Source: Mesorhizobium loti (GTDB lineage Bacteria > Pseudomonadota > Alphaproteobacteria > Rhizobiales > Rhizobiaceae). From it: a stretch of 64,000 nucleotides of DNA. Below are positions 3,488 to 27,717 of this stretch, piece by piece. Position 1 is the first letter of the stretch. Each line of letters opens with the position of its first letter. The stretch covers positions 439,001-503,000 of the forward strand of contig CP050293.1 in assembly GCA_014189435.1 (NCBI GenBank), written 5' to 3'. Made by a program: the position numbers and the translations under genes. Below the pieces are notes generated by a model. It was not told where the DNA came from and did not search any database. It saw nothing but the letters and a program-made list of their open reading frames with translations.

Positions 3488-3551
3488 GAACGCCGGAGGT
3501 CTGACCGCCCGGCGATCAGATCGCGCAGGTCGATGATGCGCAACTCGCCGT

Positions 3552-3607
3552 GACGCTGGACAGTCTTTCGCGCTTGTCCAGCGTCGGTTTTTCATAATTT
3601 TTTTCAT
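3552..3607 (+). terminator. Rho-independent terminator of the ALDH7 gene
   Basis: GACGCTGGACA at 3552-3562 pairs perfectly with TGTCCAGCGTC at 3575-3585 (11 bp stem, 12-base loop), followed by TTTTT and a run of seven or more T residues. Confidence 0.85.
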
Positions 3608-3725
3608 GCAGGGTTCCTCTCCGTGCAGGGTGCCGCGCAGGCAGCGGCAAACCTGTATGGAAACCCTATCACGTTTTCGCATCTCCCGCACGGGGATGCG
3701 ACCCGATCCGGCTCTAGACGAGATA

Positions 3726-3774
3726 GAGCATGATGTTGTCCGAAAACCGCTTCACACTTTTCGGCATCATGCTC
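3726..3774. repeat. Intergenic stem-loop repeat, copy 1
   Basis: Outer arms GAGCATGATG (3726-3735) and CATCATGCTC (3765-3774) enclose a 4-base bulge, inner arms CCGAAAA (3740-3746) and TTTTCGG (3758-3764), and an 11-base loop. The core from 3740 to 3761 is identical to 37373-37394. It lies just past the stop codon of the minus-strand gene at 3778 and may act in 3' processing. It resembles common rhizobial intergenic palindromes. Confidence 0.85.
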
Positions 3775-3777
3775 CAA

Positions 3778-4647
3778 TCAATCGCCAGCTTCGGCCGACG
3801 GAAGGCTCGCCTCGAAGGCGGCGTCGATGATGGCCAGCTTGACGGCCTGGGCGGCCATGTACTCCTGGTAGAATTCGCCCGACACCCACATCACCGAGTT
3901 ACCGCGCTGGCCGAGCCAGCCGATGCTGCCAAGGTCTTCGGCATCGCGCAGTTTGCGTGCCAGGTGGGTTCGCGACAGCTTGAGCCATTTGGCGAAGTCA
4001 CCGATCGAGACGATGCCGGTCGGGATTTGGGCGAGGCCGGCATGGTCGGGATCGACGCCCGATATCAGCCAGTCCATGACGACGCCGCCATTGTTGAGCC
4101 AGGTGAACAGCGAAAAGGTCTGCTTGGGCTCACGCACGGGACTGGAGGAGACCAGGCCGTCGGCCACCAGCGGTTGCACCCTGGCAAGCGCGTTGGGCCG
4201 CTCCAGGAACGTCGCCAGGCGGTTTGCGCCGTCGAGATTGTCCAGCGTGTGCAGGTGCGCCATCATCCAGCCGGCAACCGTCTCCAGCGTGTTCACCGTT
4301 GGCTGAATGGGGCGGATGCGGCCGTCCTGTGTTGCCGGCAGATGCTCGATGAAATTGTAATGCAGCATCTCCTTGAGGAAGGCGTCGGCGGTGTTGCGGC
4401 TGGCGACGGAATTCTCGCGGATAACGTCGATGAAACGCGCCGCCGTCAACTGCTTGCGGTAGTCGTCGGGCTCCCGCCTGAAATGCAGGGCAAGGCCGAT
4501 ATGCGCCATCAGCCAACGCTGCTGGGTGGCAAACACCGAGGCAAGCCTCGGGTTCATCTCGTAGGCCTGGATCAGCGCCTGCGCCTGGGCACGGACACAG
4601 CGATACAATGCCGGGTGACCGGCAATATGGTTCAAGGTCAGCGCCAT
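3778..4647 (-). CDS. Putative DNA-binding protein, tandem paralogue A
   Basis: About 289 residues from the ATG chosen here, the position at which the two paralogues align from their first residue; it follows a GGGGGGAG stretch. I do not recognise a named family. The C-terminal third contains SIGDFAKWLKLSRTHLARKL, which reads like a helix-turn-helix, then a wing-like segment GSIGWLGQRGNSVMWVS. The N-terminal part is helical and its conserved segments include ATQQRWL and VASRNTADAF. Transcription regulation is the best guess. The next gene upstream is a clear paralogue (roughly two thirds identical by eye), and the two share upstream sequence, so this is a recent tandem duplication including the promoter. 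Confidence 0.75.
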   Translation of the reverse strand: MALTLNHIAGHPALYRCVRAQAQALIQAYEMNPRLASVFATQQRWLMAHIGLALHFRREPDDYRKQLTAARFIDVIRENSVASRNTADAFLKEMLHYNFIEHLPATQDGRIRPIQPTVNTLETVAGWMMAHLHTLDNLDGANRLATFLERPNALARVQPLVADGLVSSSPVREPKQTFSLFTWLNNGGVVMDWLISGVDPDHAGLAQIPTGIVSIGDFAKWLKLSRTHLARKLRDAEDLGSIGWLGQRGNSVMWVSGEFYQEYMAAQAVKLAIIDAAFEASLPSAEAGD

Positions 4648-4799
4648 TCTCCCCCCGTGCGTCGAGCCCCCCAACGCGAAGACGCAGGTCACATTTTCAG
4701 CCTTCACGGCCCGTGTCCAGACGCGCCCGGTCTATAACAGGTTATGATCGCCAGGAGATAACGTTCACGGTCCGGGCAGATATCGATCCGCGCCGGTTC

Positions 4800-5663
4800 T
4801 CAGCGGTCTTCCGGGGTTGGAAAACAGGCGTCGAAGGCCGCATCGACAATAGCCAGCTTGGCGGCCTGGACGGTCATGTACTCCTGGTAGAAGGTTTTCG
4901 ACACCCACATCACCGAATGGCCGCGCTGGCCGAGCCAGCCGATGCTGCCGAGTTCCTCGGCGGCGCGCAGCTTGCGGGCAAGGTGGGTCCGCGACAGCTT
5001 GAGCCATTTGGCGAAATCTCCGATCGAAACCACACTGGTCGGAATCCGGTCCAGGCCGGCATGATCGGGGTCGATGCCCGACATCAGCCAGTCCATGACG
5101 ATGCCGCCATTGTTGAGCCAGATGAACAGGGAGAAGGTCTGGTTGGGCTCGCGCACCGGCTTGGAGGCAAGCAGGCCGTCCGCCACCAGAGGCTGCAGCC
5201 TGGCAACCATCTCGGGGTGTTCCAGGAACCTGGCCAAGCGGTCAGCACCGTCGAGGCGATCCAGCGTCCGCAAATGGGCAAGGACCCAGCCGGTAAACGT
5301 TTGGACGGTTGCCGCCGTCGGCTGCAAGGGGTGTGTGCGGCCGTCCCCGCCCGACACATACTCGGCAATGTGGTAGTGGAGCATCTCCTTGATGAAAGCG
5401 TCCGCCGTGTTGCGGCTGGCCACGGCATGCTGGTGCACGAACTCGATGAAACGGGATACCGTCAACTCCTTGCGGCGGTCGTGCGGGTCGCGCCTGAAAT
5501 GCATGGCAAGGCCGACATGGCCCAATAGCCAACGCTGCTGCGTCGCGAAAATCGAAGCCAGCCGCGGGCTCTCTTCATAGATCCGGATCAGCGCCAAAGA
5601 CTGTGCCTGAACATGGCGATGCAGGGCCGGATGGCCGGCAATGTCTTCCAGATTCAGCGTCAT
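4800..5663 (-). CDS. Putative DNA-binding protein, tandem paralogue B
   Basis: About 287 residues and colinear with paralogue A over its whole length, including the helix-turn-helix-like SIGDFAKWLKLSRTHLARKL, which is identical, and the GSIGWLGQRGHSVMWVS segment. The start at 5663 matches the start of paralogue A; an ATG three codons earlier (5672) is also possible and is followed by AGGAGG, so the exact start is uncertain. Divergence is concentrated in the N-terminal and middle regions, as expected if DNA contacts are conserved and the sensing part has changed. Function is unknown. Confidence 0.75.
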   Translation of the reverse strand: MTLNLEDIAGHPALHRHVQAQSLALIRIYEESPRLASIFATQQRWLLGHVGLAMHFRRDPHDRRKELTVSRFIEFVHQHAVASRNTADAFIKEMLHYHIAEYVSGGDGRTHPLQPTAATVQTFTGWVLAHLRTLDRLDGADRLARFLEHPEMVARLQPLVADGLLASKPVREPNQTFSLFIWLNNGGIVMDWLMSGIDPDHAGLDRIPTSVVSIGDFAKWLKLSRTHLARKLRAAEELGSIGWLGQRGHSVMWVSKTFYQEYMTVQAAKLAIVDAAFDACFPTPEDR

Positions 5664-5880
5664 CCTCCTCATGTTCCGATTCAACTCCAAACGCGGAGTT
5701 GCGTTCCACATTTTTCAGCCTTCGACAGCTGTGTCCAGAGGGTACCAAAGTTGGAGAAGAGGCGCTGTCCGATAGCGGCCAGCGGCGTGCTAACTGATTG
5801 CTGCGGCCAGAGCATAGGAGACGTCGCATCCGCTGTCGCGTCGGTCCAGTAGGCTTTTGCCTTCTTCTATCCGCTATCGG

Positions 5881-5910
5881 AAAAAAACCGGCGCCCCCGA
5901 AAGTCGCCGG
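5881..5910 (-). terminator. Rho-independent terminator downstream of the SDR gene
   Basis: Read on the minus strand, CCGGCG (5910-5905) and CGCCGG (5893-5888) form a 6-bp GC stem with an 11-base loop, followed directly by seven T residues (5887-5881). This ends the minus-strand transcript of the SDR gene and the short reading frame after it. Confidence 0.75.
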
Positions 5911-5939
5911 AGGCGCCACGCGATCATTGTCGGCCTGCG

Positions 5940-6056
5940 TCAGCCGTTTGGATCGTAGCCGCCATCGGCACCGTCGCCGATGTAGATGCCGCCGTATGTG
6001 CCGCCGTCCGTGGCCGAGCGATGGATGTCGAGATCGAGGGTCGCGGTCTGGACCAT
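5940..6056 (-). CDS. Possible 38-residue glycine-rich small protein
   Basis: A short reading frame encoding a product that begins MVQTATLDLDIHRSATDGG and ends in a Gly/Asp/Tyr-rich tail. It begins 24 bases after the SDR stop codon. GGAGG sits before the ATG but only two bases from it, which is tight. The frame ends about 30 bases before a convincing terminator, so it lies inside the SDR transcript. It has no recognisable domain. It could be a genuine small gene, a relic or chance. Confidence 0.35.
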   Translation of the reverse strand: MVQTATLDLDIHRSATDGGTYGGIYIGDGADGGYDPNG

Positions 6057-6080
6057 GGCCTCCGGCAGCGGGCGTGCTGG

Positions 6081-6839
6081 CTACATGCGCATCAGCAGGC
6101 CGCCGTCGACGGCAAGTTCGATGCCGGTGATGTAGCTCGCCGCGTCGGAGAGCAGGAACAGGGCCGCATTGGCCATGTCCTGCGGCGTGCCGATGCGGCC
6201 GAGCGGCGCGTAGCTCGCCACGGCCGAGCGCTTCTCCTCGGTGTCCCAGCGCGCCTGCAGCGGGGTCAGCGCCATGCCGGGGCAGATGGCGTTGGAGCGG
6301 ATGCGCTCGCCGGCCAGCTGCATGGCGAGCGATTTGGACAGCGCGCAGACCCCGGCCTTGGATGCCTGATAGGCGTCCTGCGGGTTGGCGTCGCCGCGAT
6401 ACCACTGGATGGTCGAGAAATGCACCATGGCGCCGCCTCGGCCGCCGGAGCGCATATGGGGTACTACCGACCGCGCGGTGTGCACGAAGGATTTCAGATT
6501 GATCCTGAACACCTCGTCCCAGACGTCGAGATCCATCTCGAGGGCCGACTTGTCGCGGCCGAACCACAGCACGCCGGCGACATTGGCGAGATAGTCGATG
6601 CCACCGCGCTCGCGGCCCGCCGTACCGATCGTCTGTTCGACAAAGGCGGCGTCGGTGAGGTCGCCCTGCGCGAAGGTGAGCCTGTCGTCGTAAGAGGCGA
6701 GGGAGGCCGGCCGGGCCTTCACGTCGATGGCGGTGACGGAGGCACCGGCATCGAGCAGCGCCAGCGTGATCGCCTCGCCCATGCCGCCGCCTGCGCCGGC
6801 GACGACCGCATGCCTGCCGGTGAAATCGTAAGCGATCAT
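6081..6839 (-). CDS. SDR family oxidoreductase
   Basis: A 252-residue classical short-chain dehydrogenase/reductase. It has the nucleotide-binding glycine motif near the N-terminus (VAGAGGGMGEAI), the NVAG motif of the central strand (LANVAGVLW), the catalytic YQASKAG, and the C-terminal SYITGIELAVDGG found in FabG-like SDRs. It probably oxidises or reduces an alcohol/ketone with NAD(P)H. It is transcribed divergently from the aldehyde dehydrogenase gene. The intergenic region holds a palindrome that recurs before the ABC importer, so it is probably part of the same catabolic regulon. Substrate unknown. Confidence 0.93.
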   Translation of the reverse strand: MIAYDFTGRHAVVAGAGGGMGEAITLALLDAGASVTAIDVKARPASLASYDDRLTFAQGDLTDAAFVEQTIGTAGRERGGIDYLANVAGVLWFGRDKSALEMDLDVWDEVFRINLKSFVHTARSVVPHMRSGGRGGAMVHFSTIQWYRGDANPQDAYQASKAGVCALSKSLAMQLAGERIRSNAICPGMALTPLQARWDTEEKRSAVASYAPLGRIGTPQDMANAALFLLSDAASYITGIELAVDGGLLMRM

Positions 6840-6927
6840 CTGAACCCCTCGTCTGCTTCTGCCGAAATGCCGATCGAGAGTGACAATAGGGGCGGACTAA
6901 AAATCCATCAAGCGGTATTAGAAAAAA

Positions 6928-6944
6928 TTTGCCAAAATGGAAAA
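6928..6944. promoter_or_regulatory. Candidate operator 1 of the XRE-cupin regulator
   Basis: TTTGCCAAAATGGAAAA is a dyad of TTTnCCA and TGGnAAA with a 3-base centre. It sits between the divergent SDR and aldehyde dehydrogenase genes. A near copy lies at 9931-9947 before the importer operon. Confidence 0.55.
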
Positions 6945-6980
6945 TCGCGATATCGTACCCAAAATGACCTCTCAGCTCGG

Positions 6981-8405
6981 ATGGATTTCAACAGCATGAA
7001 CCTGCATTCCGGCGCGCGGACCTTTTCCGTGACTTCTCCCGTCGACGGCTCGACCTATACGACGCGCTCCTATGCCGATGGTTCCACCATCGAGGCAGCG
7101 CTCACCCGGGCTCGTGCTGCGCTGCCTTCCTGGCGGCGGACGCCGCTGGCCGACAGGCTGGCAATCCTGCTGCGCTTCGGCGAGGAGATGAAGGCGCGGG
7201 CAACGCCGCTGGCCGAGATGGTGGCCTGGCAGATCGGCCGGCCGCTGTGGCAGGCCGACGAGACGCCGCGCCTGGCGCTGGTCGGACAGCTGCTTGCCGA
7301 CATCGCACCGGAAACGCTGGCCGATGTGCCGTATCCTTCGGACGAGACCATCCGCCGCTATGCCAAACCGGTGGCGGGTGGCCTGCATCTGTCGATCTGC
7401 GCGTGGAATTACCCGACCGCCATGCTTGGCTATCTCGTCACGTCGCCGCTTGCGGCCGGCAATGTCGTGATCTTCAAGCATTCGCCGCAGACGCCACTGA
7501 TTGCCGAACTGGCCGAGGACGCCTTCCGCGCCGCCGGCGGTCCCGAGGGCGTGTTCCAGAGCCTGCATCTCGATCATGCAGATGCCGAGCAATTGATCGC
7601 CTCGGGCGCCTTCAACGCGGTGAATTTCATCGGTTCGGTCAATGGCGGCCGGCGCGTCCATGCCGCCGCCGCGGGCACCTTCACACAGGTTCATCTCGAA
7701 CTCGGCGGCAAGGATCCGACCTATATCAGGGCCGATGCCGACCTTGAGGCAACGATCCCGCAGATCGCCGAGGGCACCTATTCCAACGCCGGCCAGTCCT
7801 GCTGCTCGGTCGAGCGCATCTATGTCGACCGGGCGATCCATGACCGCTTCATCGAAGCGCTGGTCGCCGAGACGGCGAAATGGACGATTGGGCATCCGAT
7901 CGGCGAGAAGCCGATGGTCGGCCCGGTGGTGCGGGCGAGTGCCGCCGACACGATCCGCGATCTCACCGAGCAGGCGGTGCGGGCAGGGGCCCGGCGGCTG
8001 ATGCCGCAGGATGGTGGGCTCAAGGCCTCAGGCCTCGGCGCCGCCTATGTCGCGCCGGAAGTGCTGGTCGGTGTCGACCACGACATGCGGATCATGCGCA
8101 ACGAACTGTTCGGGCCGGTGGCCTGCATCCAGTCGGTCGGCAGCGATGACGAGGCGATCCGTCTGATGAACGACAGCGATTTCGGCCTCAGCGCCTCGAT
8201 CTGGACCAGGGATATCGATCGCGGCGTGGCGCTGCTCGACGAGGTCGAGGCCGGCACCGTCTATCTCAACCGCTGCGACCACGCCGATCTGCATCTGCCC
8301 TGGGGCGGCATCAAGAATTCCGGTCTCGGCCGCACCAATGGCCGTGCCGGCCTGGCGGAGGCGACGGCGGCGAAGGCCTATCATGTCCGCTCCGTCATCG
8401 GCTGA
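6981..8405 (+). CDS. Aldehyde dehydrogenase family protein
   Basis: About 474 residues. Key residues are the general base in LELGGKDPTY (E240) and the nucleophile pair in NAGQSCCSVERI (C274/C275). The cofactor-binding region includes NVVIFKHSPQTPL. The frame is open far upstream, but homology begins near MDFNSMNLHSGARTF, so the ATG at 6981 (or 6996) is preferred. Its 3' end overlaps the N-formylglutamate amidohydrolase gene by about 23 bases, which indicates one operon. Together with the SDR it could take an alcohol to an acid by way of an aldehyde. The exact substrate is not evident. Confidence 0.9.
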   Translation: MDFNSMNLHSGARTFSVTSPVDGSTYTTRSYADGSTIEAALTRARAALPSWRRTPLADRLAILLRFGEEMKARATPLAEMVAWQIGRPLWQADETPRLALVGQLLADIAPETLADVPYPSDETIRRYAKPVAGGLHLSICAWNYPTAMLGYLVTSPLAAGNVVIFKHSPQTPLIAELAEDAFRAAGGPEGVFQSLHLDHADAEQLIASGAFNAVNFIGSVNGGRRVHAAAAGTFTQVHLELGGKDPTYIRADADLEATIPQIAEGTYSNAGQSCCSVERIYVDRAIHDRFIEALVAETAKWTIGHPIGEKPMVGPVVRASAADTIRDLTEQAVRAGARRLMPQDGGLKASGLGAAYVAPEVLVGVDHDMRIMRNELFGPVACIQSVGSDDEAIRLMNDSDFGLSASIWTRDIDRGVALLDEVEAGTVYLNRCDHADLHLPWGGIKNSGLGRTNGRAGLAEATAAKAYHVRSVIG

Positions 8406-9225
8406 TCCGGAGGTCGGCCCGGTGAGCGCCGCGAGCCTTGCAGGGCTTGACGATGGAGCAATCGCCGCGCTGGCCGCCGCCAGCGTCGAGCGGCTGCGCG
8501 TCGAGGCGGCAAGCCCCTATCTTCTGATCGCCGAACACGCCGGCAATCGCGTGCCCGCGCCGTGGTCCGATCTTGGCCTCGCAGCACCCTATCTTGGCAC
8601 GCATTTCGCTGTCGACATCGGCATCGATGCCCTGACGCGCCGGCTGTCGCGGGCATTGCGGGCGCCGGCCGTGGTCGCGCATTATTCGCGGCTGTTCCTC
8701 GACTACAACAGGCCGGCCGGTGAATGGGACTTCATGCGCCCGGATCTCGGCGGCATTCCGGTGCCCGGCAATCTGGCGCCCGATGCAGTCGATGTCAGGC
8801 TGCGCAAGAGGATCGCCTGGGCGCCGGTCGAACAGGCTGTTATCGAGGCCGCGGCGGGCCGGCAGGCGCTGATCTCGGTGCATTCCTTCACCCCGGTGAT
8901 GGGCGGTGTCAGGCGCAATGTCGACATCGGCGTGCTGTGGCGGGAGCCGTCCCCCTTCGTCACCTCGGTGCTGAAAACCCTTGGCGCGCGGGGCGCGGAG
9001 GCCGGGTTGAGGGTCGGCGACAACGAGCCTTATGACTGGCGCCAGGCGGTCGGCTACACGCTGAACCGGCACGGGCTGGAACAGGGAAGGCCCTGCCTCT
9101 ATCTCGAAGTCCGCAACGACCTGCTTTCCGATCCGGAAACATTCGAGCTCGTCAGCCGCACCCTGGAGGATGTCTTTGCCACCGTCGCGATGTCGCTATG
9201 GCCGAAACCAGCCGTAGCCGTCTAA
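8383..9225 (+). CDS. N-formylglutamate amidohydrolase family protein
   Basis: About 280 residues. The family signature begins with LLIAEHAGNRVPAPWSDLGL and continues with HFAVDIGIDALTRRLSRAL, YSRLFLDYNRP, ISVHSFTPVMGG and CLYLEVRNDLL. These carry the His/Glu/Asp residues that bind zinc in HutG-type deformylases. Such enzymes split N-formyl or N-acyl glutamate-type amides. No other histidine-degradation (hut) genes are here, so the partner ligase may be the glutamine-synthetase-like enzyme downstream, with this protein releasing a glutamyl or acyl amide. That link is inference. It overlaps the genes on both sides. Confidence 0.88.
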   Translation: MSAPSSADPEVGPVSAASLAGLDDGAIAALAAASVERLRVEAASPYLLIAEHAGNRVPAPWSDLGLAAPYLGTHFAVDIGIDALTRRLSRALRAPAVVAHYSRLFLDYNRPAGEWDFMRPDLGGIPVPGNLAPDAVDVRLRKRIAWAPVEQAVIEAAAGRQALISVHSFTPVMGGVRRNVDIGVLWREPSPFVTSVLKTLGARGAEAGLRVGDNEPYDWRQAVGYTLNRHGLEQGRPCLYLEVRNDLLSDPETFELVSRTLEDVFATVAMSLWPKPAVAV

Positions 9226-9881
9226 AGGCTGGACGCCCCCGAGGCGCGCCGCTAGAGCTTGTCGAATTGGAAACACGGCAGCCAAGGGCGTGGGCGATGC
9301 AGGGTAATGTCGGCAGCAAGATCCGCGATGCGCGCAAGGAGCAGAACATCACGCTGCGCGATCTCAGCGAACGCTCCGGCCTTTCGGTGTCGCAATTGTC
9401 GAAGCTCGAGAACGGCAAAGCCCGCCTGACGGTCGACGTCGCGCTGATGATCGCCGGCGTGCTGCATGTGCCGGTGGCCTCCTTCCTGTTCAGCCCGAAG
9501 CCGGGCATGCAGGCGCGCCGCTCGATCACGCGCGCCGGCAGCGGCATCCTGCACCAGGGCAATGCGATGGAATTCGAGGTCCTGTGCAGCGATTTTCGCG
9601 ACAAGACCAACATTTTCTGGCGTGTCACGCTGCGCGCGAGGAGCTTCGAGGAGAATGGCGGCTGGCGCAGCCATTCGGGCGAGGAGTTCATCCACGTGCT
9701 GAGCGGCAGCCTGGAACTGCACACCATCCACTATGATCCGACAGTGCTGCAGCCGGGCGACAGCATCCTGTTCGACGGTGAAATGCAGCATGCCTATATC
9801 GCGCTGGGCGACGAGCCGGTGATCATGCTGATGTCGAACACCGTGCCACGCGACGGGCTGCCGGCCGGCGCCGGCGTCTGA
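9198..9881 (+). CDS. XRE family regulator with C-terminal cupin domain
   Basis: A 227-residue regulator. The helix-turn-helix is KIRDARKEQNITLRDLSERS followed by GLSVSQLSKLENGKARLTV. A C-terminal cupin (GEEFIHVLSGSLELH ... LQPGDSILFDGEMQHAY) probably senses a small molecule. This architecture is that of PuuR-like regulators of amine and amino-acid catabolism. The ATG at 9198 overlaps the preceding gene by 28 bases; an internal ATG at 9297, just before the HTH, is an alternative start. It most likely controls this locus through the TTTnCCA/TGGnAAA palindromes at 6928 and 9931. Confidence 0.9.
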   Translation: MAETSRSRLKAGRPRGAPLELVELETRQPRAWAMQGNVGSKIRDARKEQNITLRDLSERSGLSVSQLSKLENGKARLTVDVALMIAGVLHVPVASFLFSPKPGMQARRSITRAGSGILHQGNAMEFEVLCSDFRDKTNIFWRVTLRARSFEENGGWRSHSGEEFIHVLSGSLELHTIHYDPTVLQPGDSILFDGEMQHAYIALGDEPVIMLMSNTVPRDGLPAGAGV

Positions 9882-9930
9882 TACCGGCCTAGCCGGATTC
9901 CCAGCCCGAAAGCTCAGCGCCTCAAGAATA

Positions 9931-9947
9931 TTTTCTAAAATGGAAAA
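9931..9947. promoter_or_regulatory. Candidate operator 2 of the XRE-cupin regulator
   Basis: TTTTCTAAAATGGAAAA matches the palindrome at 6928-6944 at 15 of 17 positions. It lies between the regulator gene and the importer operon. A further ATGGAAAA half-site lies just downstream, near 9959. Confidence 0.55.
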
Positions 9948-10037
9948 AAATACTTGTTATGGAAAAGTCCGGGGTCTAGCATCCTGTTGACCGGCCGACA
10001 GGAGAAATAGCCATCGGCCGGATGGGAGATGTGACCG

Positions 10038-10763
10038 ATGCTGTCGGTTGAGGCAGTCAGCAAGACCTTTGGCGGCGTGCAGGCGTTGCGCAGTGCCTCG
10101 CTGACCTGCGAGGCTGGCGAAATCCTCGGCCTGATCGGCCCCAATGGCGCCGGAAAATCGACCCTGGTCAATGCCATCTCCGGCGTGCTCAGGCCGGACA
10201 CTGGCAGTGTCAGGTTGGCGGGCAAGGAGATCACCGGCCAAGGCCCCGAGCACTGCGCCCGGGCGGGTGTCGCGCGTACCTTCCAGACCATCCGCCTGTT
10301 CAAGGATTTGACCGTTCGGCAGAATGTCGAAGTCGCTCATATCACCTGCCAGGCGGTTCGGCCGGAAGCCGCGGCACGCATCGGCGTCGATCAACTGCTT
10401 GCGCAATATCAGCTGGACGGCTTTGCCGACGTTCCGGCCGGCACGCTGTCCTATGGCAGCCAGCGGCGGCTCGAAATCGCCCGCGCGCTGGCGCTGGGTC
10501 CATCGCTGCTGCTGCTCGACGAGCCGGCGGCCGGCCTCAATGAAGGTGAGTCCGAAACGCTCGCGGTGGCGATCGAAGGCATTCGCCGGGATGTCGGCTG
10601 CGCGACCATCGTCATCGATCACGATTTGCGCTTCATCAACCGGCTTTGCGATCGGCTCTGCGTCATGGACCAGGGTCAGGTGATCGCCTCCGGGCAGACC
10701 GAAGCGGTGTGGCGCGATCCGCGCGTCATCGAGGTTTATGTCGGGCAGTCCGAGGCATCGTGA
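10038..10763 (+). CDS. Branched-chain-type ABC transporter ATP-binding protein (LivG type)
   Basis: A 241-residue ATPase. Walker A is [16 protein letters not shown], the signature is LSYGSQRRLEIARAL (LSYG instead of LSGG, a common LivG variant) and Walker B is LLLLDEPAAGLNEGES. The long loop after Walker A (ARTFQTIRLFKDLTV) is typical of the hydrophobic amino acid transport family. It is the first gene of a five-gene importer operon with a substrate-binding protein, a second ATPase and two permeases. Its promoter region carries the operator-like palindrome at 9931. Confidence 0.95.
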   Translation: MLSVEAVSKTFGGVQALRSASLTCEAGEILGLIGPNGAGKSTLVNAISGVLRPDTGSVRLAGKEITGQGPEHCARAGVARTFQTIRLFKDLTVRQNVEVAHITCQAVRPEAAARIGVDQLLAQYQLDGFADVPAGTLSYGSQRRLEIARALALGPSLLLLDEPAAGLNEGESETLAVAIEGIRRDVGCATIVIDHDLRFINRLCDRLCVMDQGQVIASGQTEAVWRDPRVIEVYVGQSEAS

Positions 10764-20183: not shown

Positions 20184-20996
20184 CTAGAGGCCCAGCGAGG
20201 CCTTGAAAGCGGAAAGCTCCTTGTCGGCGACCGCAACCACGTGCTGCGGCTCGGGATAGGCGCCGGTTTGCACGTCGGATATGAACTCGCGATAGGCGGC
20301 GATGCGCTCGCGCTGCAGCCGCTCATATTCGGCGGCGAAGTTGCGGTAGGTCTTGGCGTGGCGCGGCCTGTGGCCAGCGGTGTGGCCGAGCACATCCTCG
20401 CTGAACAAGTATTGCGCGTCTGCATGCGGCCCGGCGCCCATGCCGAGCATGATCATGGGCGTATTGCGGGTGATCAGTTCGGCCACCCGGTCGGGCACCA
20501 CCTCCAGCTCGGCGCCAAAGCAGCCGATGGCCTCCAGGCGTTTGACGTGATCCCATACCGCACGCGCACTCTCGGCCGTCCTGCCGACGGCCTTGAAGCC
20601 ACCGGTCCAGGTGCATTGCGAGGGGATCAGGCCGACATGGGCGACGACCGGCACCGCATTGTCGCAGAGCGCCTTCTGAATATCGAGCGAGGCGGCGCAG
20701 TAGAAGCAGTCGCCGCCGATGCGCATGAAGTGGTAGGCGGTTTTCAGATAATCCTCCGACGTGACCAGATTGCCGGCGGGGCCATAAGGGAGCCCGACCT
20801 GCACGAAGCAGCGGCCGGCCGCCTCGCGCATCTCGGGCGAGAAGAAGCGGCCCTCGATCGAAAGCATGTCGACGCCGGCCGCATCCGCTGCCGCCGCCTC
20901 TTCGACAGAGGTGACGTACAGCATGGAAATCTTTTGTCCGCGGCCCTTCATGGCGCGGATGTCGGCGACGGTGGGGCGGCTGCTCTTGGTGACCAT
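20184..20996 (-). CDS. PanB-like (ketopantoate hydroxymethyltransferase family) protein with altered active site
   Basis: A 270-residue TIM-barrel protein of the PEP-mutase/PanB superfamily. Family landmarks remain: KISMLYVTSVEEAAAADAAG at the start, PVVAHVGLIPSQ, GGFKAVGR, GAELEVVPDRVAELIT and MIMLGMGAGPHADAQYL. Aligned by eye with E. coli PanB, the metal and lysine positions differ: MLSIEG for MLVGDS, VQVGLPYG for LADLPF, and DCFYCAAS for VKIEGG. It is therefore probably not a pantothenate enzyme but a lyase/aldolase in the catabolic operon. It is the last gene, 8 bases after the TIM-barrel isomerase. Confidence 0.85.
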   Translation of the reverse strand: MVTKSSRPTVADIRAMKGRGQKISMLYVTSVEEAAAADAAGVDMLSIEGRFFSPEMREAAGRCFVQVGLPYGPAGNLVTSEDYLKTAYHFMRIGGDCFYCAASLDIQKALCDNAVPVVAHVGLIPSQCTWTGGFKAVGRTAESARAVWDHVKRLEAIGCFGAELEVVPDRVAELITRNTPMIMLGMGAGPHADAQYLFSEDVLGHTAGHRPRHAKTYRNFAAEYERLQRERIAAYREFISDVQTGAYPEPQHVVAVADKELSAFKASLGL

Positions 20997-21004
20997 TTCG
21001 TTCC

Positions 21005-21787
21005 TCAGACGGTGAAAGCTTCGCGGAAGGCCTGCAGGGCAATTTCGGGATCGCCGGAGGCAAACGCCTCCATGCCCACCGGCCCACGGTAGCCCATGTC
21101 CTTCAGGGCAAGGGCGATGCCGTTGTAGTTGATTTCGCCGGTGCCGGGCTCCATGCGTCCGGGCACGTCGGCCACCTGGACCTCGCCGATCCACGGCAGG
21201 CAGGCGCGGCACAGTTCGATCAGGTTCCCTTCGCCGATCTGCGCATGGTAGAGATCGAGATTGAGGCGCAGACTTGGACGGTTGACGCTCGACACCAGGG
21301 CAAGCGTATCCTCGGCGCGCCCAAACGGCACACCGGGATGGTCGACCGGCAGGTTCAAATTCTCCAGCGTGAATGTCACGCCCTCGGCTTCGGCGAGGTC
21401 GGCAATGCGGTTCAGCGTGTCGCGCGCCTTCAGCCACATCGCGCCGGTGACGGTCTCGCAAGGGGTGACCGGGAGGCCGCCATCGCCCAGTCCTGTGCCA
21501 TGCAGATTGAGCCGTGCGACGCCGAGCCGCTTGCCGACCGCCGCCGTCTCCTTCGCTGTCTTCAATAGTTCGGCGGCACCCTCGTCGTCGGCAAGCCTGC
21601 CGCGCAGATAGCCGTTCATGATCGAGAAGGTCGCGCCGGATTTCTCGAGCATTGCGAGATCGTGCTCGGGCCAGTTCCAGAGGCCAATCTGGAAGCCCAT
21701 TTCGGTGAGGCGCTTGACGCGCCATTCCATCGGCTTGTCGCGCCACAGCATTTCGACGCAAGCCGCAAGGGTGAAGGTATCGGACAT
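21005..21787 (-). CDS. Hydroxypyruvate isomerase-like TIM-barrel protein
   Basis: A 260-residue AP-endonuclease-2/xylose-isomerase-type barrel related to hydroxypyruvate isomerase (Hyi/OtnI). Metal-binding strands are recognisable in FTLENLNLPVDHPG (Glu), LRLNLDLYHAQI (Asp/His), GEVQVADVPGRMEPGTGEIN and the final Glu in that segment. It would isomerise a small hydroxy-keto acid or sugar derivative. There is only 1 base between it and the Rieske gene and 8 to the PanB-like gene, so the three are coexpressed. Confidence 0.9.
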   Translation of the reverse strand: MSDTFTLAACVEMLWRDKPMEWRVKRLTEMGFQIGLWNWPEHDLAMLEKSGATFSIMNGYLRGRLADDEGAAELLKTAKETAAVGKRLGVARLNLHGTGLGDGGLPVTPCETVTGAMWLKARDTLNRIADLAEAEGVTFTLENLNLPVDHPGVPFGRAEDTLALVSSVNRPSLRLNLDLYHAQIGEGNLIELCRACLPWIGEVQVADVPGRMEPGTGEINYNGIALALKDMGYRGPVGMEAFASGDPEIALQAFREAFTV

Positions 21788-21788
21788 G

Positions 21789-22100
21789 TCAGGCCTCGAT
21801 GTGCACGCGGCCGTCCTCGACCTTCGTGGTGTAGGTTTTAAGGTTCACGCAGACCGGTGCGCGCAGCGCTTCGCCGGTCCGGTAATCGAACACGCCGCTG
21901 TGCTTGGGGCATTCGACCCGGTATTCCATAACCAGCCCGTCACTCAGATGCACCTTTTCATGCGTGCACAGCCCGTCGGTGCAGAAGAATGTATCGTCTG
22001 GGCTTCGGTAGATGGCGAATGTCCGGCCCTCGTGATCGAAGCGGATGACGTCCTCTTCCTCAATGTCATCGGTCGCGCACGCATCAATCCACTTTGCCAT
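21789..22100 (-). CDS. Rieske [2Fe-2S] ferredoxin
   Basis: A 103-residue small Rieske protein. The cluster ligands are CTH (C45, H47) and CPKH (C64, H67), with the conserved spacing between them. It resembles MocE-like and bphA3-like ferredoxins that carry electrons to oxygenases. The start at 22100 gives MAKWIDACATDD and is preceded by AGGAA; an upstream extension is not coding-like. In this operon the only obvious acceptor is the membrane hydroxylase encoded at the 5' end. No ferredoxin reductase gene is present, so a reductase from elsewhere would be needed. Confidence 0.92.
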   Translation of the reverse strand: MAKWIDACATDDIEEEDVIRFDHEGRTFAIYRSPDDTFFCTDGLCTHEKVHLSDGLVMEYRVECPKHSGVFDYRTGEALRAPVCVNLKTYTTKVEDGRVHIEA

Positions 22101-22214
22101 TGCTGGTTCCTGCAAGCCTGTCTTTGGTTGGTTGAAAAAGGCGGCCGGCGGACCACGCATTCCGCCGGCCGTACAGGAAGATGCCCGGGAGGAGGAGATG
22201 GGCGTCTTCACTGG

Positions 22215-23039
22215 TCACGCATGGCTCGCGCCCTGCGGCGCATGCCCGTTGTCAGCCGCCGAGAAGCTCTCGATCTCGGCTTCAAGCTCGGCCATCTGCT
22301 CGCCGCCGGCCATCAGGTCGGTGATCGCCTCGCGGCTCTTCTCGCCCTTGCGGAAGTCGGCCGCCTTTGAGCCTCTGATGAGGACAGCGAAGTGGTCGCC
22401 GACAGTCAGTGCATGGACGACATTATGGGTGATGAAGATCACCGCGATGCCCTTGCGGCGCGCCTGCAGGACGATGCGCAGCACATGCGCCGCCTCCTTG
22501 ACGCCGAGGGCCGCGGTCGGCTCGTCGAGGATCAGCACGCTGGCGCCGAAATGCACGGCGCGCGCGATCGCCAGCGCCTGGCGCTCGCCTCCGGACAGCC
22601 CACCGACGAGGCGATCGCCGTCATCGATGCGGGTGATGCCGAGCTGGCGCATCTCGGTGACGGCGATCTCGTTGGCCCGTTTGCGGTCGTAGATGGTCAG
22701 CGGCCCCCAGCGTCGCGTCGGCTCGGCGCCGACGAAGAAGGAGCGGCCGATGCTCATCAGCGGGAATGTCCCGCCGAACTGGTGGACGGTGGCGATGCCA
22801 TGGTCGCTGGCGTCGCGCGGGCTGTCGAAGGCGACTGATTTGCCGTCCATATCCATCGTGCCCGATGTCGGCTTGTGGACACCGGAGAGAATCTTGATCA
22901 GCGTCGACTTGCCGGCGCCATTGTCGCCGAGCAGGCACAGCACCTCGCCTCTGTTGACCTCGAGCGAGATGTCGTGGAGCACATCGATCGGACCGAACGA
23001 CTTGTTGATTGCGGTCAGCCTGAGCAGGGGCGTTGTCAT
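22215..23039 (-). CDS. Ribose-type sugar ABC transporter ATP-binding protein
   Basis: A 274-residue single-domain ATPase of the carbohydrate uptake-2 (CUT2) group. Walker A is [17 protein letters not shown], the signature is [15 protein letters not shown], and Walker B is [16 protein letters not shown]. Most CUT2 ATPases are about 500 residues with two fused domains; this one has a single domain, like FrcA of rhizobia, and would homodimerise. The ATG overlaps the stop of the permease as TGATG. The long open frame upstream of 23039 is read from the permease DNA in another frame and is not part of the gene. Confidence 0.93.
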
Positions 23040-24097
23040 CAGCTTGCCCTCGATTTGGTGCGCGGCGCGTAGGTCAGCGCCATGGTGCGGAAGGTGTTGT
23101 TCATCAGCACGGCGGCGAGCAGCAGGACGCCGATGATCAGGCTCGCCCAGTTGGCGTCGAAGCCGGTGTAGAAGATGCCCTGGTTGACGATCGAGAACGT
23201 CAGCGTGCCGAGCACGATGCCGACGACCGAGCCGTAGCCGCCGGTGAGCAGCACACCGCCGATGACCACAGCGATAATCGAGTTGAAGATGAAGGATTGG
23301 CCGGCGGCCACCTGCGCGCTGTTGTAGAGGATCGCCTGCGACATGCCGACGAAGGAGGCGCACAGGCCGCTGCTCATGAACAGCGCGATGGTCACCCGGT
23401 CCGTCGGGATGCCGGCATTGCGAGCGCTGACCGCGTCGCCGCCCATGGCCAGGATCCAGTTGCCGAAGCGCGAGAAATTCAGGATGAAGCCGACGATCAG
23501 GACGACGGCGATCCACCAGAACAAAGTCACCTGGAACTTGCCGCCGAGATAGTCGCCGAACAGGAGCTTGGCGGTCGGTCCGCTCTTCAGCGCCACACTG
23601 GTGCTGCCGGACAGGATGACCGAGAGGCCGAGCGTCAGGCCGGCCAGCGCGAACAAAGTCGCCAGCGTGACGACGAAGGACGGCACTTTGGTGCGGATCA
23701 CCAGCACGCCGTTGATGAAGCCGACGGCGAGCCCAAGACCGAGCGCGGCGAGGATGCCGACGATGATCGGCAGGTCGTAGTGGCCCGAGAGGATGGCAAT
23801 GGTCATCGAGCTGGCCGGGATCATCGAGCCGACGGAGAGATCGAGATGTCCGGCGATCATCAACAACCCCACAGGAAGTGCGATGATGCCGAGTTCCGAG
23901 GCGACGTTGAGCCAGCTCGCAGCGCCCCCGGCCGACATGAAATTGGCGCCGCCGAAGATCGAGAAGAACACCAGCACGGCGATCATGCCGATCAGCGAGC
24001 CCACCTCCGGTCGGCGCACGAGGCTGCCGATCGAGGGCATCGAAGAGTGCGGCGCGGTCGCCGCCACGGCGGGTTGGTGATGGGCTTGGGATGTCAT
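23039..24097 (-). CDS. Ribose-type sugar ABC transporter permease
   Basis: About 352 residues with eight or more hydrophobic spans, of the RbsC/FrcC family ([20 protein letters not shown] is the diagnostic loop, followed by [20 protein letters not shown]). The start ATG at 24097 is followed by a hydrophilic lead [11 protein letters not shown] before the first span. It is translationally coupled to the ATPase. A 160-base repeat element separates it from the binding-protein gene upstream. Confidence 0.93.
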
Positions 24098-24127
24098 CGA
24101 AATGTCCCTGGCGTTGTGACTTGAAAA

Positions 24128-24280
24128 TATGGCTCCCCCTTGTCCCCTTGTGGGAGAAGGTGTCGCCGCAGGCGACGGATGAGGGGTGTTCCAGCTTGGC
24201 ACCGACGGCGCTCCGTCCAGCACCCCTCAACCGTCTCGGCGCTGCGCGCCGATCCACCTTCTCCAAAAAGGGGAGAAGGC
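24128..24280. repeat. Intergenic repeat element inside the ABC operon
   Basis: Imperfect inverted repeats occupy the gap between the binding-protein and permease genes: CCCCTTGTGGGAGAAGG at the left and CCTTCTCCAAAAAGGGG at the right, with TGAGGGGTG/CACCCCTCA nested inside. The style matches short intergenic elements that recur in rhizobial genomes. Only one copy is in this window. Confidence 0.6.
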
Positions 24281-24289
24281 AAGGCCGAG

Positions 24290-25276
24290 CTATCGGGCGC
24301 CGGCCGCCGCGCCAGCCAGCGTCGCGTCGACATTGGCGGCGTCGACGATCCCGGGTCCGGTCAGCACCGGTTTCGTCGGCAGGTCGAGCCCGTAGTTGAC
24401 GAAGCCGTTGAGCAGCGACACGGCAAGGAAGCCTTGCAGATAGGGCTGCTGGTCGATCGAGAACATCTGCGTGCCGTCCTTGATGCGTTGCAGGCCGGTT
24501 TCGTCCATATCGAACGACGCGAGCTTGACCTTGTCGCCGACACTGGCCTGGCTGATGGCATTGGCGGCGCTGTTGGCGTCGCCGGCGCTGATGGTGATGA
24601 CACCGTCGAGCGTGTTGTCCTTCAGCACGGCGGCCTTGATCGCCTCGGCGACCGCGGTCGGGTTGCCGAAGCTGGAAGAAGGCAGCGGCAGCTGGCTCGA
24701 TTTGCCGCCGCTCTTGGCGATGGCGTCGGCAATGCCCTTGCAGCGGTCTTCGGTGTTGGTGGAGCCCGGCAAGGTGTTGACGCACAGCACGTTCTTGGCG
24801 CCATGGCCGCCAAAATAGGCGCCACCGCCAAGACCGGCCGCGTATTCCTCGTTGCCGACATAGTTCATGGCGCCGAGCCGCTTGGCCGCATCCATGCCGC
24901 CGGAATTGTAGATGATGAGCGGCACGCCTGCCGCGACGACTTCCTTGAAGGCGTCATCCATGGCCTCGGGCACCCAGTCCGGCCCGACAATGGCGCTGGG
25001 ATTCTGGCTGAGCGCGGTGCGGATCAGCTTGGCCGCGTCCGGGCCCAGATTGTCGTAGTTCTGCGGACCGAGCCAGGTGACCGAGCCGCCCGTCAGTTCG
25101 GCGACCTTGCCGGCATCGTCGGCGCCCTTCTTGACCTTCGACCAGAACGGGTCGTCGGCCTTGCCGCCGATGACGAAGATCTTTGCCCCTTTGGACTGCG
25201 CCATTGCCGATGTGGCCGATGTCGCCGCCACGCCGGCAAGCATGATCGCCGCCAAGAGTCTTGTGATACGCTTCAT
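24290..25276 (-). CDS. Ribose-type ABC transporter substrate-binding protein
   Basis: About 328 residues. A signal peptide ([20 protein letters not shown], cut after AMA) precedes a Peripla_BP_4 fold ([20 protein letters not shown] at the N-terminal strand and [19 protein letters not shown] later). It probably binds a sugar, cyclitol or similar polyol. GGAGGAG sits at a good distance before the ATG at 25276. In operon with the permease and ATPase downstream and the membrane hydroxylase upstream. Confidence 0.93.
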
Positions 25277-25371
25277 GTCGTCTCCTCCCATTTGCCGTCT
25301 TCAGACGGGTTTTTGAAAAACTGTGACCTCTGCTGCGCGCCTCTCTCCCGGCTGCGCGCCGCGTGACGTGA

Positions 25372-26391
25372 TCAAGGGTTCGCCGCGGCCTTGGCGTTCA
25401 TGCGTTCTTTCTTTTTCTGGAAGCGGGCGTCCATCATGGCTTCGCCCTCTCTGGTGCCGTCGTGCCAGGTGCCGAACCACCGATCGAGCGGGATCAGCCC
25501 GTCGCCGCCATAGTTCACCTCGAAATATTTGTGGTGCAGGTAGTGCGTGTAGGCGTGGCTATCGACAGCGGTATCCTCGGTCACCTCGAGCTTATCGAAC
25601 CCGAGATGGCCATTGACGGCGCCGAAGCCGGCGACGTGCAGCTGGAACAGCGCGACGATCGGATTGGATGGGATGACCAGATGCCAGAAGGCGACCGCGT
25701 GGTAGAGGAAGCCTTCCACCGGATGCATCGATAGCGACGACCAGGGCGACGGGTTGATCGAATTGTGGTGGACCGAATGGATCCAGCGGTAGAGCGGTCC
25801 CCAGTGGATCAGGCGGTGGATGAAGAAGAAGTGCACCTCGTGAATGGCAGGCGCGATCAGCACCAGCACGGCGAGGTAGACCGGGTGATCCTGCCAGCCA
25901 ACCCACGGCACGTAGCCATTGGCAAAGCACCAGAGGAAAATGACTTCGACCAGCGTCCACAGCGGGATGGTGATGAAGAACGAGCGCAGGAAATTGTCGA
26001 GGTTCTGGCTCTGGAACCAGAACACGTCGGACGGCGCATCGCCGGGGAATTTGTGGTTGTATTTGAACCGCGTCGCCTGGGCGCGCTTGATGTAATAGCG
26101 CAGCTCGAAGATGCCGTAGAAGACGAGGATCGCCGCCGCGTTGACGGCGTAGAGCCATAGCGCCCAGCCCCAGCCTATGGTCTTCATCGTCTCGACGCTC
26201 GGCACGACATAGAACCAGTAGAGCAGGGCAGTGGCCATGTGGAAGGCATTCCACGGCCAGATATAGCCGGGCAGCCACGCCAGGATTTTCGGCAGCCTGG
26301 GCGGCCAGTTCAGCAACGGCGCCCCCTCGATGCGTCCGTTCGGCTTCCAGTCGCCGCGCTTGTCGCGCACGCCGTATTTGAGATCGTCCAT
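25372..26391 (-). CDS. Membrane fatty-acid-hydroxylase/sterol-desaturase family protein
   Basis: A 339-residue integral membrane di-iron oxygenase. Histidine clusters that bind the two irons are present: HEVHFFFIHRLIHW, HSVHHNS, MHPVEGFLYH and HYLHHKYFEVNYG. Several hydrophobic spans lie before and between them. GGAGG precedes the ATG at 26391. It is the first gene of the operon that includes the Rieske ferredoxin and the sugar-type importer, and it reads divergently from the LacI regulator. Hydroxylation or oxidative demethylation of the imported compound is a plausible role (inference); the gene pairing recalls rhizopine mocDE. Confidence 0.9.
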   Translation of the reverse strand: MDDLKYGVRDKRGDWKPNGRIEGAPLLNWPPRLPKILAWLPGYIWPWNAFHMATALLYWFYVVPSVETMKTIGWGWALWLYAVNAAAILVFYGIFELRYYIKRAQATRFKYNHKFPGDAPSDVFWFQSQNLDNFLRSFFITIPLWTLVEVIFLWCFANGYVPWVGWQDHPVYLAVLVLIAPAIHEVHFFFIHRLIHWGPLYRWIHSVHHNSINPSPWSSLSMHPVEGFLYHAVAFWHLVIPSNPIVALFQLHVAGFGAVNGHLGFDKLEVTEDTAVDSHAYTHYLHHKYFEVNYGGDGLIPLDRWFGTWHDGTREGEAMMDARFQKKKERMNAKAAANP

Positions 26392-26562: not shown

Positions 26563-26655
26563 CTTGATCCAAAATGAATCAAGAATAGAATGTTTGTTCC
26601 AAATGGATTGTGTCATTCATATCAATCAGGCACGGGAAATGATATTTTCGTATCA
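26563..26655. promoter_or_regulatory. Candidate LacI-type operators in the divergent promoter region
   Basis: Two dyads: CTTGAT/ATCAAG arms at 26563-26568 and 26578-26583 (10-base spacer), and TGATAttttcgTATCA at 26640-26655. They lie between the hydroxylase operon and the LacI-family gene. Which of them is bound cannot be decided from sequence. Confidence 0.4.
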
Positions 26656-26679: not shown

Positions 26680-27717
26680 ATGGATCAGAACAAGCGGCCG
26701 ACGATCAGGGATGTAGCCGCCGAGGCCAATGTTTCGGTGGCCACCGTCAACCGGGTGCTGAGCGGCGCTGGTGCCGTGCGCCAGGGCACGCGCGAGCGCG
26801 TCAGGCTGGCGGCGGAGCAGATCGGCTTTTATGGCATGGGCGCGCTGCGCAGCCGCGTGGCGGCCGCCCGGCCGCGCTACCGGCTCGGTTTCCTGCTGCA
26901 CCAGCCCGGCCGTGCCTTCTACCGAAACATGGCCGAGGCGCTGCGCCTTGCAGCCGAAACGATGTCCGACTGCGAGATAGAGCTGCGCACGGAGTTTCTG
27001 GACGATCTGTCGCCACAAAACGTTGCTTCGCGGATGTTGGCCTTGGGCGCCGAATGCGATGCCGTCGGCGTCGTCGCCGCGGTCCATCCCCTCGTCACCC
27101 AGGCTGTGGATACGCTCAAGGCCCGCAACGTGCCGGTGTTTGCGCTGATCTCGCAGATCTCGGCGACGGGCCATGTGCGCTATATCGGGCTGGACAACTG
27201 GAAGGTTGGGCGCACCGCGGCCTGGGTGTTCGAGCATGTCTGCCGGGCGCCCGGCAAGCTCGGCATCCTCGTCGGCAATCACCGCTACCGCTGCCAGGAA
27301 ATGAACGAGAGCGGCTTTCGCTCCTATTTCCGCGAGCACGCCCCTGGCTTCACCCTGCTGGAACCGCTGCTGACCTTCGAATCGAGCGCCATCGCGCAGG
27401 AAATGACCGAAAAGCTGCTGAACGAAAATCCCGATCTGTCGGGCCTTTATGTCGCCGGCGGCGGCATCACCGGCGCCATCGCGGCGTTGCGTTCCACCGG
27501 GCGGGCCGGCAGCCTCGTCGTCGTCGGCTATGAGCTGATGGACTCGACGCGCCCGGCACTGCTCGACGGCACGCTGACCTTTGTCATTTCGCACCCGCTC
27601 GCCCGCATCGCGCAGGAAGCGCTGGCCGGCATGGTCCGCGCCGTCTCCGCCCCGAACGACGGCGGCAACTTCACGACGATCCTGCCCTTCGAGATCTACA
27701 CCCGCGAGAACATCTAG
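26680..27717 (+). CDS. LacI family transcriptional regulator
   Basis: A 345-residue regulator. The helix-turn-helix is TIRDVAAEANVSVATVNRVL with the hinge-type GAVRQGTRERVRLAAEQIGF, followed by a periplasmic-binding-protein-like effector domain (YRLGFLLHQPGRAFYRNMAE ... VGYELMDSTRPALLDGTLTF). It reads divergently from the hydroxylase/importer operon with a 288-base gap holding candidate operators. It most likely represses that operon until the imported substrate or a product binds it. Confidence 0.95.
   Translation: MDQNKRPTIRDVAAEANVSVATVNRVLSGAGAVRQGTRERVRLAAEQIGFYGMGALRSRVAAARPRYRLGFLLHQPGRAFYRNMAEALRLAAETMSDCEIELRTEFLDDLSPQNVASRMLALGAECDAVGVVAAVHPLVTQAVDTLKARNVPVFALISQISATGHVRYIGLDNWKVGRTAAWVFEHVCRAPGKLGILVGNHRYRCQEMNESGFRSYFREHAPGFTLLEPLLTFESSAIAQEMTEKLLNENPDLSGLYVAGGGITGAIAALRSTGRAGSLVVVGYELMDSTRPALLDGTLTFVISHPLARIAQEALAGMVRAVSAPNDGGNFTTILPFEIYTRENI

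Follow-up and report, generated by a model that had tools for sequence, protein, structure and literature searches.

What is consumed by an operon that joins a membrane oxygenase and a Rieske ferredoxin to a sugar-type importer and to a relative of the pantothenate enzyme PanB? Such an operon lies in the stretch of Mesorhizobium loti DNA analyzed here (contig CP050293.1 of assembly GCA_014189435.1, positions 439,001 to 503,000; 64,000 nucleotides in all, hereafter the window), part of a genome of 8.33 Mb. Its seven minus-strand genes encode a membrane di-iron oxygenase, a periplasmic substrate-binding protein (SBP), the permease and ATPase of an ATP-binding cassette (ABC) importer, a MocE-family ferredoxin, a TIM-barrel protein, and a PanB-like barrel; a LacI-family regulator gene diverges from them (Table 1). 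All of these genes, named in a first-pass annotation of the sequence, were confirmed, and the limits it gave for the unit proved exact (oxygenase ATG at 26391; PanB-like stop codon ending at 20184). From gene content, we predict that the operon takes up an O-methylated cyclitol, most likely of the D-pinitol or ononitol kind, and removes its O-methyl group by oxidation; we give this reading a little better than an even chance. A cyclitol-type importer, an oxygenase with its ferredoxin, an inositol dehydrogenase, and folate one-carbon genes are what the O-demethylation of a methyl-inositol would need.

The operon recurs across rhizobia and Rhodobacteraceae

A search for the oxygenase gave 110 relatives, of which the best 80 loci were kept; the 66 loci with at least 6.3 kb of downstream sequence serve as the denominator for counts, which were drawn from tblastn layouts and refer to related genomes, not independent events. 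The oxygenase was 88 to 98% identical to those of 16 named Mesorhizobium loci (L007 to L022). The divergent LacI gene was found in 63/66 loci, as was the SBP gene, followed by the ATPase and Rieske genes (62/66 each), the permease (61/66), the PanB-like gene (56/66), and the TIM barrel (53/66). Gene order was kept across Mesorhizobium, Rhizobium, Shinella, and Rhodobacteraceae, and because it recurs across related loci, the arrangement is not due to chance.

The oxygenase belongs to PF04116 by profile match and by its histidine clusters (H191/H195, H204/H207/H208, H222, H261, and H285/H286), which were invariant in 81 aligned sequences. No PDB chain matched it by sequence at E values up to 1, and we propose that it acts as an O-demethylase. 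Kinship with the PF00487 protein of this genome, called MocD type because its gene adjoins a FixV-like one in the manner reported in an excerpt of PMC3538637, was rejected (no significant similarity; best E value 0.47). Of the 66 loci, 48 carried an IolG-family gene within ∼10 kb, 15 a ferredoxin reductase, 13 PurU, and 6 FolD. In many relatives, a Gfo/Idh/MocA dehydrogenase comes after the PanB-like gene; it passed the IolG model TIGR04380 in both operons scored (424.8 and 428.1 versus 355), and the Gemmobacter copy is annotated iolG by PGAP. A second IolG-like group is counted within the 48; the single member scored fell below its cutoff (264.9 versus 540). PurU exceeded its cutoff. A second cluster of the same genome, L135, encodes a MocF-like reductase, an IolG above the cutoff (427.2), and a MocE-family ferredoxin 72% identical to that of the window over the aligned part. 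The moc-like pairing of oxygenase and ferredoxin noted in the first-pass annotation is supported by the ferredoxin score (Table 1); the reductase it reported as lacking is indeed missing from the window, but only locally: relatives encode it in the operon, and L135 encodes one.

Clear homologues of iolE, iolD, or iolR were present near 6 of the 80 loci (L054, L067, L069, L074, L081, and L086; one iol reference set was taken from L054 itself, and the weak matches at L027 and L065, with 25 to 27% identity and ∼60 bits, were excluded from the count). Together with IolG above the cutoff, these homologues point to an inositol as the carbon product, not an unknown branched sugar. Of the first-pass suggestions, a methylated compound as the likely substrate and a cyclitol-type importer are supported; the SBP is nearest to the rhizopine/inositol type. 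The same demethylation could act on an O-methyl hexose or another methylated sugar, for instance algal or cyanobacterial, with no cyclitol involved. Rhodobacteraceae make up many of the cluster's bearers, and some of these came from water or ponds; oxidative demethylation of 6-O-methyl-galactose by a P450 is an established parallel (PMC10033563, in part); IolG and the iol homologues in relatives, as well as the type of SBP, argue against this alternative, which we consider improbable.

That the operon is a second, divergent rhizopine system for O-methyl-scyllo-inosamine or a close relative would fit the MocE-family ferredoxin and an SBP whose nearest model is the rhizopine SBP. However, neither the window operon nor its recurrent neighbors contain MocR or an amine-handling gene, the cluster is common in Rhodobacteraceae, where rhizopine would not be expected, and a cluster distinct from the operon, L138, is present in this genome; we regard a second system as very unlikely. 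L138 (contig C1:4674000-4690000, positions 3485 to 10077) is of rhizopine or inositol type: it holds a MocR-like regulator, a Gfo/Idh/MocA protein, an IolE above the cutoff, and ABC genes, and its rhizopine-type SBP is above the cutoff (433.9 versus 420).

In legumes, pinitol and ononitol have been reported to accumulate in nodules, those of Lotus included (PMC8730688, excerpt), and pinitol was the most concentrated compound in Mimosa root exudate (PMC5789663, excerpt). Among the open-licence papers searched, the portions available described no bacterial route for pinitol or ononitol demethylation. The literature search also found no paper linking sterol desaturase, hydroxypyruvate isomerase, ketopantoate hydroxymethyltransferase, and ABC transporter, and none bringing together MocE, a Rieske protein, and a sterol desaturase.

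The PanB-like protein has lost the PanB keto acid and metal site

The PanB-like protein has the PanB fold (AlphaFold model pLDDT of 84.5; six PanB entries top the structure comparison), but it scored below both curated PanB models (TIGR00222, 90.9 versus 207.55; NF001452, 121.2 versus 272). We compared 74 oxygenase-linked PanB-like proteins with true PanB sequences (10 of 12 loci recovered by script). An Asp at the Asp45 or Asp84 position, which we take to be Mg ligands in PanB, was present in 10/10 true PanB and 0/74 oxygenase-linked proteins; the Asp84 position was Gly in 73 and Cys in 1, and Lys112 was replaced by Tyr in 74/74. In contrast, the His136 and Glu181 positions were retained in 74/74. 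A role in pantothenate synthesis was rejected, given the scores, the site residues, and the genomic context. The best match to canonical panB in this genome (C1:2961563-2962334) is split across two adjacent frames, by a frameshift or an assembly error, and no match in the genome attains the panB cutoff.

Loss of these residues bears on an alternative pathway, in which the compound degraded would be a sugar, either branched or acidic. Here the oxygenase would attack a skeleton C-H bond, a hydroxypyruvate isomerase (Hyi)-like enzyme would isomerize a 2-keto acid, and a PanB-like retro-aldol reaction would move a hydroxymethyl branch onto tetrahydrofolate. PanB chemistry works on alpha-keto acids, the TIM barrel is nearest to hydroxypyruvate and 2-oxo-tetronate isomerases, and the PurU and FolD of relatives would suit one-carbon release by either route. 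Nevertheless, the residues holding keto acid and metal are gone, and the PanB-like gene accompanies other oxygenases and importers without an Hyi-like gene; we consider this pathway distinctly improbable. The TIM barrel also failed as IolE (20 bits versus 290). Under the methyl-cyclitol reading, we propose it as a keto-inositol isomerase; pinitol as the substrate would explain the presence of an isomerase.

The PanB-like gene accompanies oxygenases of several families

Across 398 genomes of the phylum, a search at E values up to 1e-25 placed PanB-like genes at 29 sites in 20 genomes, of which 20 sites were examined with flanks of up to ∼8 kb. A membrane di-iron oxygenase was present in 15/20 regions: twelve were of the PF00487 MocD type, two belonged to OXB (a sister PF04116 group), and one to OX (the PF04116 group of the window). 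Thirteen of the 15 also had a Rieske gene. The remaining five comprised L188 (ferredoxin, TIM barrel, and IolG, with no oxygenase in the stretch) and the distant homologues L172, L178, L179, and L180. By comparison, an oxygenase or Rieske homologue was found near true panB in 0/12 loci of relatives (∼1.5 kb on each side). Eight annotated plasmid regions, hand-picked from 40 listed of 271 records (Sinorhizobium meliloti pSymB, Rhizobium phaseoli, Marivivens, Bradyrhizobium, Phaeobacter, Rhizobium sp. K102, R. rosettiformans, and Mesorhizobium huakuii pMHb), had a fatty acid or sterol desaturase gene near the PanB-like gene in 8/8 cases and a Rieske gene as well in 7/8; purU and folD are also present in the pMHb region, as is iolG in those of Marivivens and R. 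rosettiformans. In Tabrizicola (L045), an OX operon adjoins a MocD-MocE-PanB-like unit, and L140 reads LacI, PanB-like, OXB, Rieske, reductase, PurU, FolD. Elsewhere in the M. loti genome (L171, C1:1506500-1523500, positions 6379 to 9711), a MocD-type desaturase, a MocE-type ferredoxin, a PanB-like gene, and PurU follow a ribose-type importer.

In a tree of 65 sequences (of 88 rows, 23 near-duplicate loci being dropped), built by a quick method and with several long branches, the oxygenase type switches four times, or possibly three, since L049 and L057, labeled OXB, carry both OX and OXB. This company of three oxygenase groups suggests that the PanB-like gene probably serves the demethylation step and not one carbon skeleton. 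The first-pass annotation took enzymes differing from those of moc as a hint of a new substrate; the recurrence of the barrel with demethylase-type oxygenases of differing families shows that it is not peculiar to this substrate and disfavors a role in processing the substrate's skeleton. At positions 5580 to 10340 of L175, genes for a MocD-type oxygenase, a Rieske protein, a reductase, and a PanB-like protein adjoin one for a binding protein of glycine-betaine/choline type (57.2 and 54.9 bits, below cutoffs). This module may therefore also serve N-demethylation, which would fit a one-carbon role for the PanB-like protein.

Two further regions carry related genes. On a Phaeobacter inhibens plasmid (L213, 6295 to 8777), genes of the inositol oxygenase and sterol desaturase families and a distant PanB-like gene (31%) are adjacent. 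The region C3:100000-118000 of the M. loti genome (L136, 7476 to 9650) holds short MocD-type remnants and a 131-residue PanB-like frame beside another FixV-group LacI gene, apparently a module in decay.

A proposed route and its weak points

We propose that the SBP and ABC importer would bring the methyl-cyclitol into the cell, where the membrane oxygenase would hydroxylate the O-methyl group with electrons delivered through the MocE-type ferredoxin and a reductase, the latter in the operon in relatives and encoded elsewhere in this genome. Breakdown of the hemiacetal would yield formaldehyde and free inositol, which IolG and the TIM-barrel protein would convert to keto-inositol for the iol pathway. 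The PanB-like protein, without the PanB keto acid and metal site, would help to pass formaldehyde on to tetrahydrofolate, from which FolD and PurU would oxidize and release the one-carbon unit. LacI would be a substrate-responsive regulator.

The proposed job of the PanB-like protein is thus to load formaldehyde, which is toxic, onto tetrahydrofolate. Condensation of the two is spontaneous according to a 2022 review (PMC8879981, excerpt), and a 2020 calculation (PMC7073904, excerpt) found that the spontaneous rate alone would permit only a 24-day doubling time. Tentatively, at clearly less than an even chance, we suggest a general role: an enzyme that condenses tetrahydrofolate with formaldehyde (or with the hydroxymethyl hemiacetal) and is the dedicated partner of membrane di-iron demethylases, that is, a PanB-fold, folate-using counterpart of the formaldehyde-activating enzyme (Fae) across rhizobia and Rhodobacterales, annotated as a pantothenate gene. 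The protein might instead assist the oxygenase in a structural or regulatory capacity, as loss of the PanB catalytic and metal positions, the strict neighborhood with oxygenases, and the small number of operons without the gene would allow. Retention of His136 and Glu181 and the invariance of the new polar residues suggest an active site, and PurU/FolD lie directly downstream in L171, L216, and L140; we therefore regard a noncatalytic role as rather unlikely.

Several observations weigh against the route or its parts. The SBP scored far below the rhizopine-SBP cutoff (173.5 bits versus 420), and in fold comparison many sugar-binding proteins match it nearly as well as does the myo-inositol protein 4irx. 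The TIM barrel is closer to Hyi than to inositol enzymes. The operon in the window itself lacks genes for IolG, the reductase, PurU, and FolD, and most of the 66 relatives showed neither PurU nor FolD nearby. The link between PanB-like gene and oxygenase is imperfect: neither a PanB-like nor a PurU gene was detected in L135 or in the sister clusters L087, L088, and L139 (LacI, OXB, Rieske, and SBP, on Sinorhizobium and Rhizobium plasmids; L088 and L139 also carry a reductase and a TIM barrel). By script, the gene was not found in 10/66 loci, or 9/66 after correction of L086, where it lies just beyond the script's distance limit; at L076 and L080, the sequence stops a short distance away. Given the L175 binding protein, the module alone cannot fix the substrate. 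In Escherichia coli, deletion of canonical panB left formaldehyde-dependent growth unchanged (PMC7073904), and every step of the route is deduced from sequence.

Among the loci without the PanB-like gene, L070 offers a single case, in favor of the route, of a glutathione-dependent formaldehyde dehydrogenase gene (626.7 versus 543.95), ∼1.3 kb after the ATPase gene. Many S. meliloti strains carry plasmid-borne relatives of the oxygenase from the L087/L088/L139 sister cluster.

The operon offers a candidate route for demethylating the pinitol or ononitol of legume nodules, and the PanB-like protein provides a concrete candidate for an enzyme joining formaldehyde to tetrahydrofolate. The analysis also suggests that a number of rhizobial genes annotated for pantothenate synthesis are misnamed.

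The regulator is a distant member of the FixV group

FixV activates nifA2 in M. loti, its homologues adjoin mocDEF and share about 60% identity, and the suspected inducer is an inositol derivative (excerpt of PMC3538637). The window LacI belongs to the FixV group by similarity and by its position beside a moc-type oxygenase; it is 44.0% identical to the L135 regulator and 41.5% identical to the FixV-group protein of L137, below the identity shared by FixV homologues and thus suggestive of a more distant member. Through this kinship, the substrate of the operon could help to identify the FixV signal. In R. phaseoli, the LacI gene has a TIM-barrel gene on one side and, on the other, genes for a desaturase, MocE, a FAD-dependent oxidoreductase, and the PanB-like protein, the last of which seems to be a previously overlooked fourth gene of such units. 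L137 (C3:46000-64000, positions 2795 to 9682) brings together a FixV-group LacI, an Msi119-like TIM barrel, and NifA (707.7 versus 528.85), a grouping described for Mesorhizobium ciceri WSM1271 (PMC3538637, excerpt).

A candidate operator half-site pair, allowing up to 3 mismatches a side, was present in 50/77 intergenic regions versus 73/1540 shuffles; we treat it as tentative because the half-site was picked from the same data.

Layout of the locus

The permease and ATPase starts, and the gap sizes, are those judged likely on reading. The oxygenase and SBP genes are separated by 80 bp and the SBP and permease genes by ∼190 bp containing inverted repeats, the permease and ATPase genes overlap by 1 base, and 114 bp separate the ATPase and Rieske genes; the Rieske-TIM barrel and TIM barrel-PanB-like gaps are 1 bp and ∼11 bp. 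The seven genes are co-oriented, in agreement with the single polarized unit of the first-pass annotation, but a terminator-like hairpin in the ATPase-Rieske gap urges caution, and the Rieske, TIM-barrel, and PanB-like genes may be expressed at a different level than the upstream genes. The hairpin search found 9 terminator-like sites in the region versus 4.2 expected. Long imperfect inverted repeats between the SBP and permease genes (24133 to 24289) are perhaps a dispersed repeat element; Rfam at gathering thresholds had no match in the window.

Table 1. Positions in the window of the operon genes, the regulator, and candidate signals
Feature	Position	Strand	Evidence
Membrane di-iron oxygenase, PF04116 (fatty acid hydroxylase family), 339 aa	25372..26391	-	66.3 bits vs 31
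Periplasmic binding protein (SBP)	24290..25291	-	PF13407; nearest curated family, rhizopine SBP
CUT2-type ABC permease	23039..24097	-	PF02653, 143.6 bits
Single-domain ABC ATPase	22215..23039	-	PF00005, 108.9 bits
MocE-family Rieske [2Fe-2S] ferredoxin	21789..22100	-	TIGR02377, 182 bits vs cutoff 136.15
Xylose-isomerase-like TIM barrel	21005..21787	-	PF01261, 103.3 bits; nearest to Hyi, below TIGR03234 cutoff (106.5 vs 353.45)
PanB-like barrel	20184..20993	-	PF02548, 136.6 bits; under both PanB cutoffs
Divergent LacI-family regulator, FixV group	26680..27717	+	PF00356 and PF13407
Candidate operator (TATCATT...ATGAATGACA type), LacI-oxygenase intergenic region	26612..26645, approximate		Half-site pair; tentative
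Terminator-like hairpin, ATPase-Rieske gap	22171-22142		11 pairs, tail CCTTTTTCAA

Comparison with known systems

Among the closest known systems is mocDEF, the oxygenase complex of rhizopine catabolism (PMC10107442, PMC3538637, and PMC5132102, each in part). Both pair a membrane oxygenase with a MocE-family ferredoxin (and, in relatives of the window, a reductase), follow an O-methyl cyclitol logic, and are associated with a FixV-group LacI regulator. They differ in the oxygenase, PF04116 in the window versus PF00487 for the MocD type (represented here by this genome's MocD-type protein, not a characterized MocD), and in gene content, the window operon being without a MocF reductase and having added PanB-like and Hyi-like genes. 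Relative to the moc system as a whole, its SBP falls under the MocB-type curated cutoff, and a LacI-family regulator takes the place of MocR. The PanB-like protein departs from PanB in the lost Asp45, Asp84, Lys112, and Glu114 positions, a deleted stretch after strand 2, scores under both curated cutoffs, and different genomic company. Like the 6-O-methyl-galactose system of marine Flavobacteriia (PMC10033563, excerpt), the proposed pathway would O-demethylate oxidatively with a ferredoxin and reductase and yield formaldehyde, but the marine system has a P450 in place of the membrane di-iron enzyme and an alcohol dehydrogenase in place of the PanB-like neighbor. With Fae, the PanB-like protein would share the job of accelerating the reaction that condenses formaldehyde and a pterin cofactor; Fae uses tetrahydromethanopterin (excerpts of PMC7073904 and PMC8879981), whereas the protein proposed here would combine the PanB fold with tetrahydrofolate.

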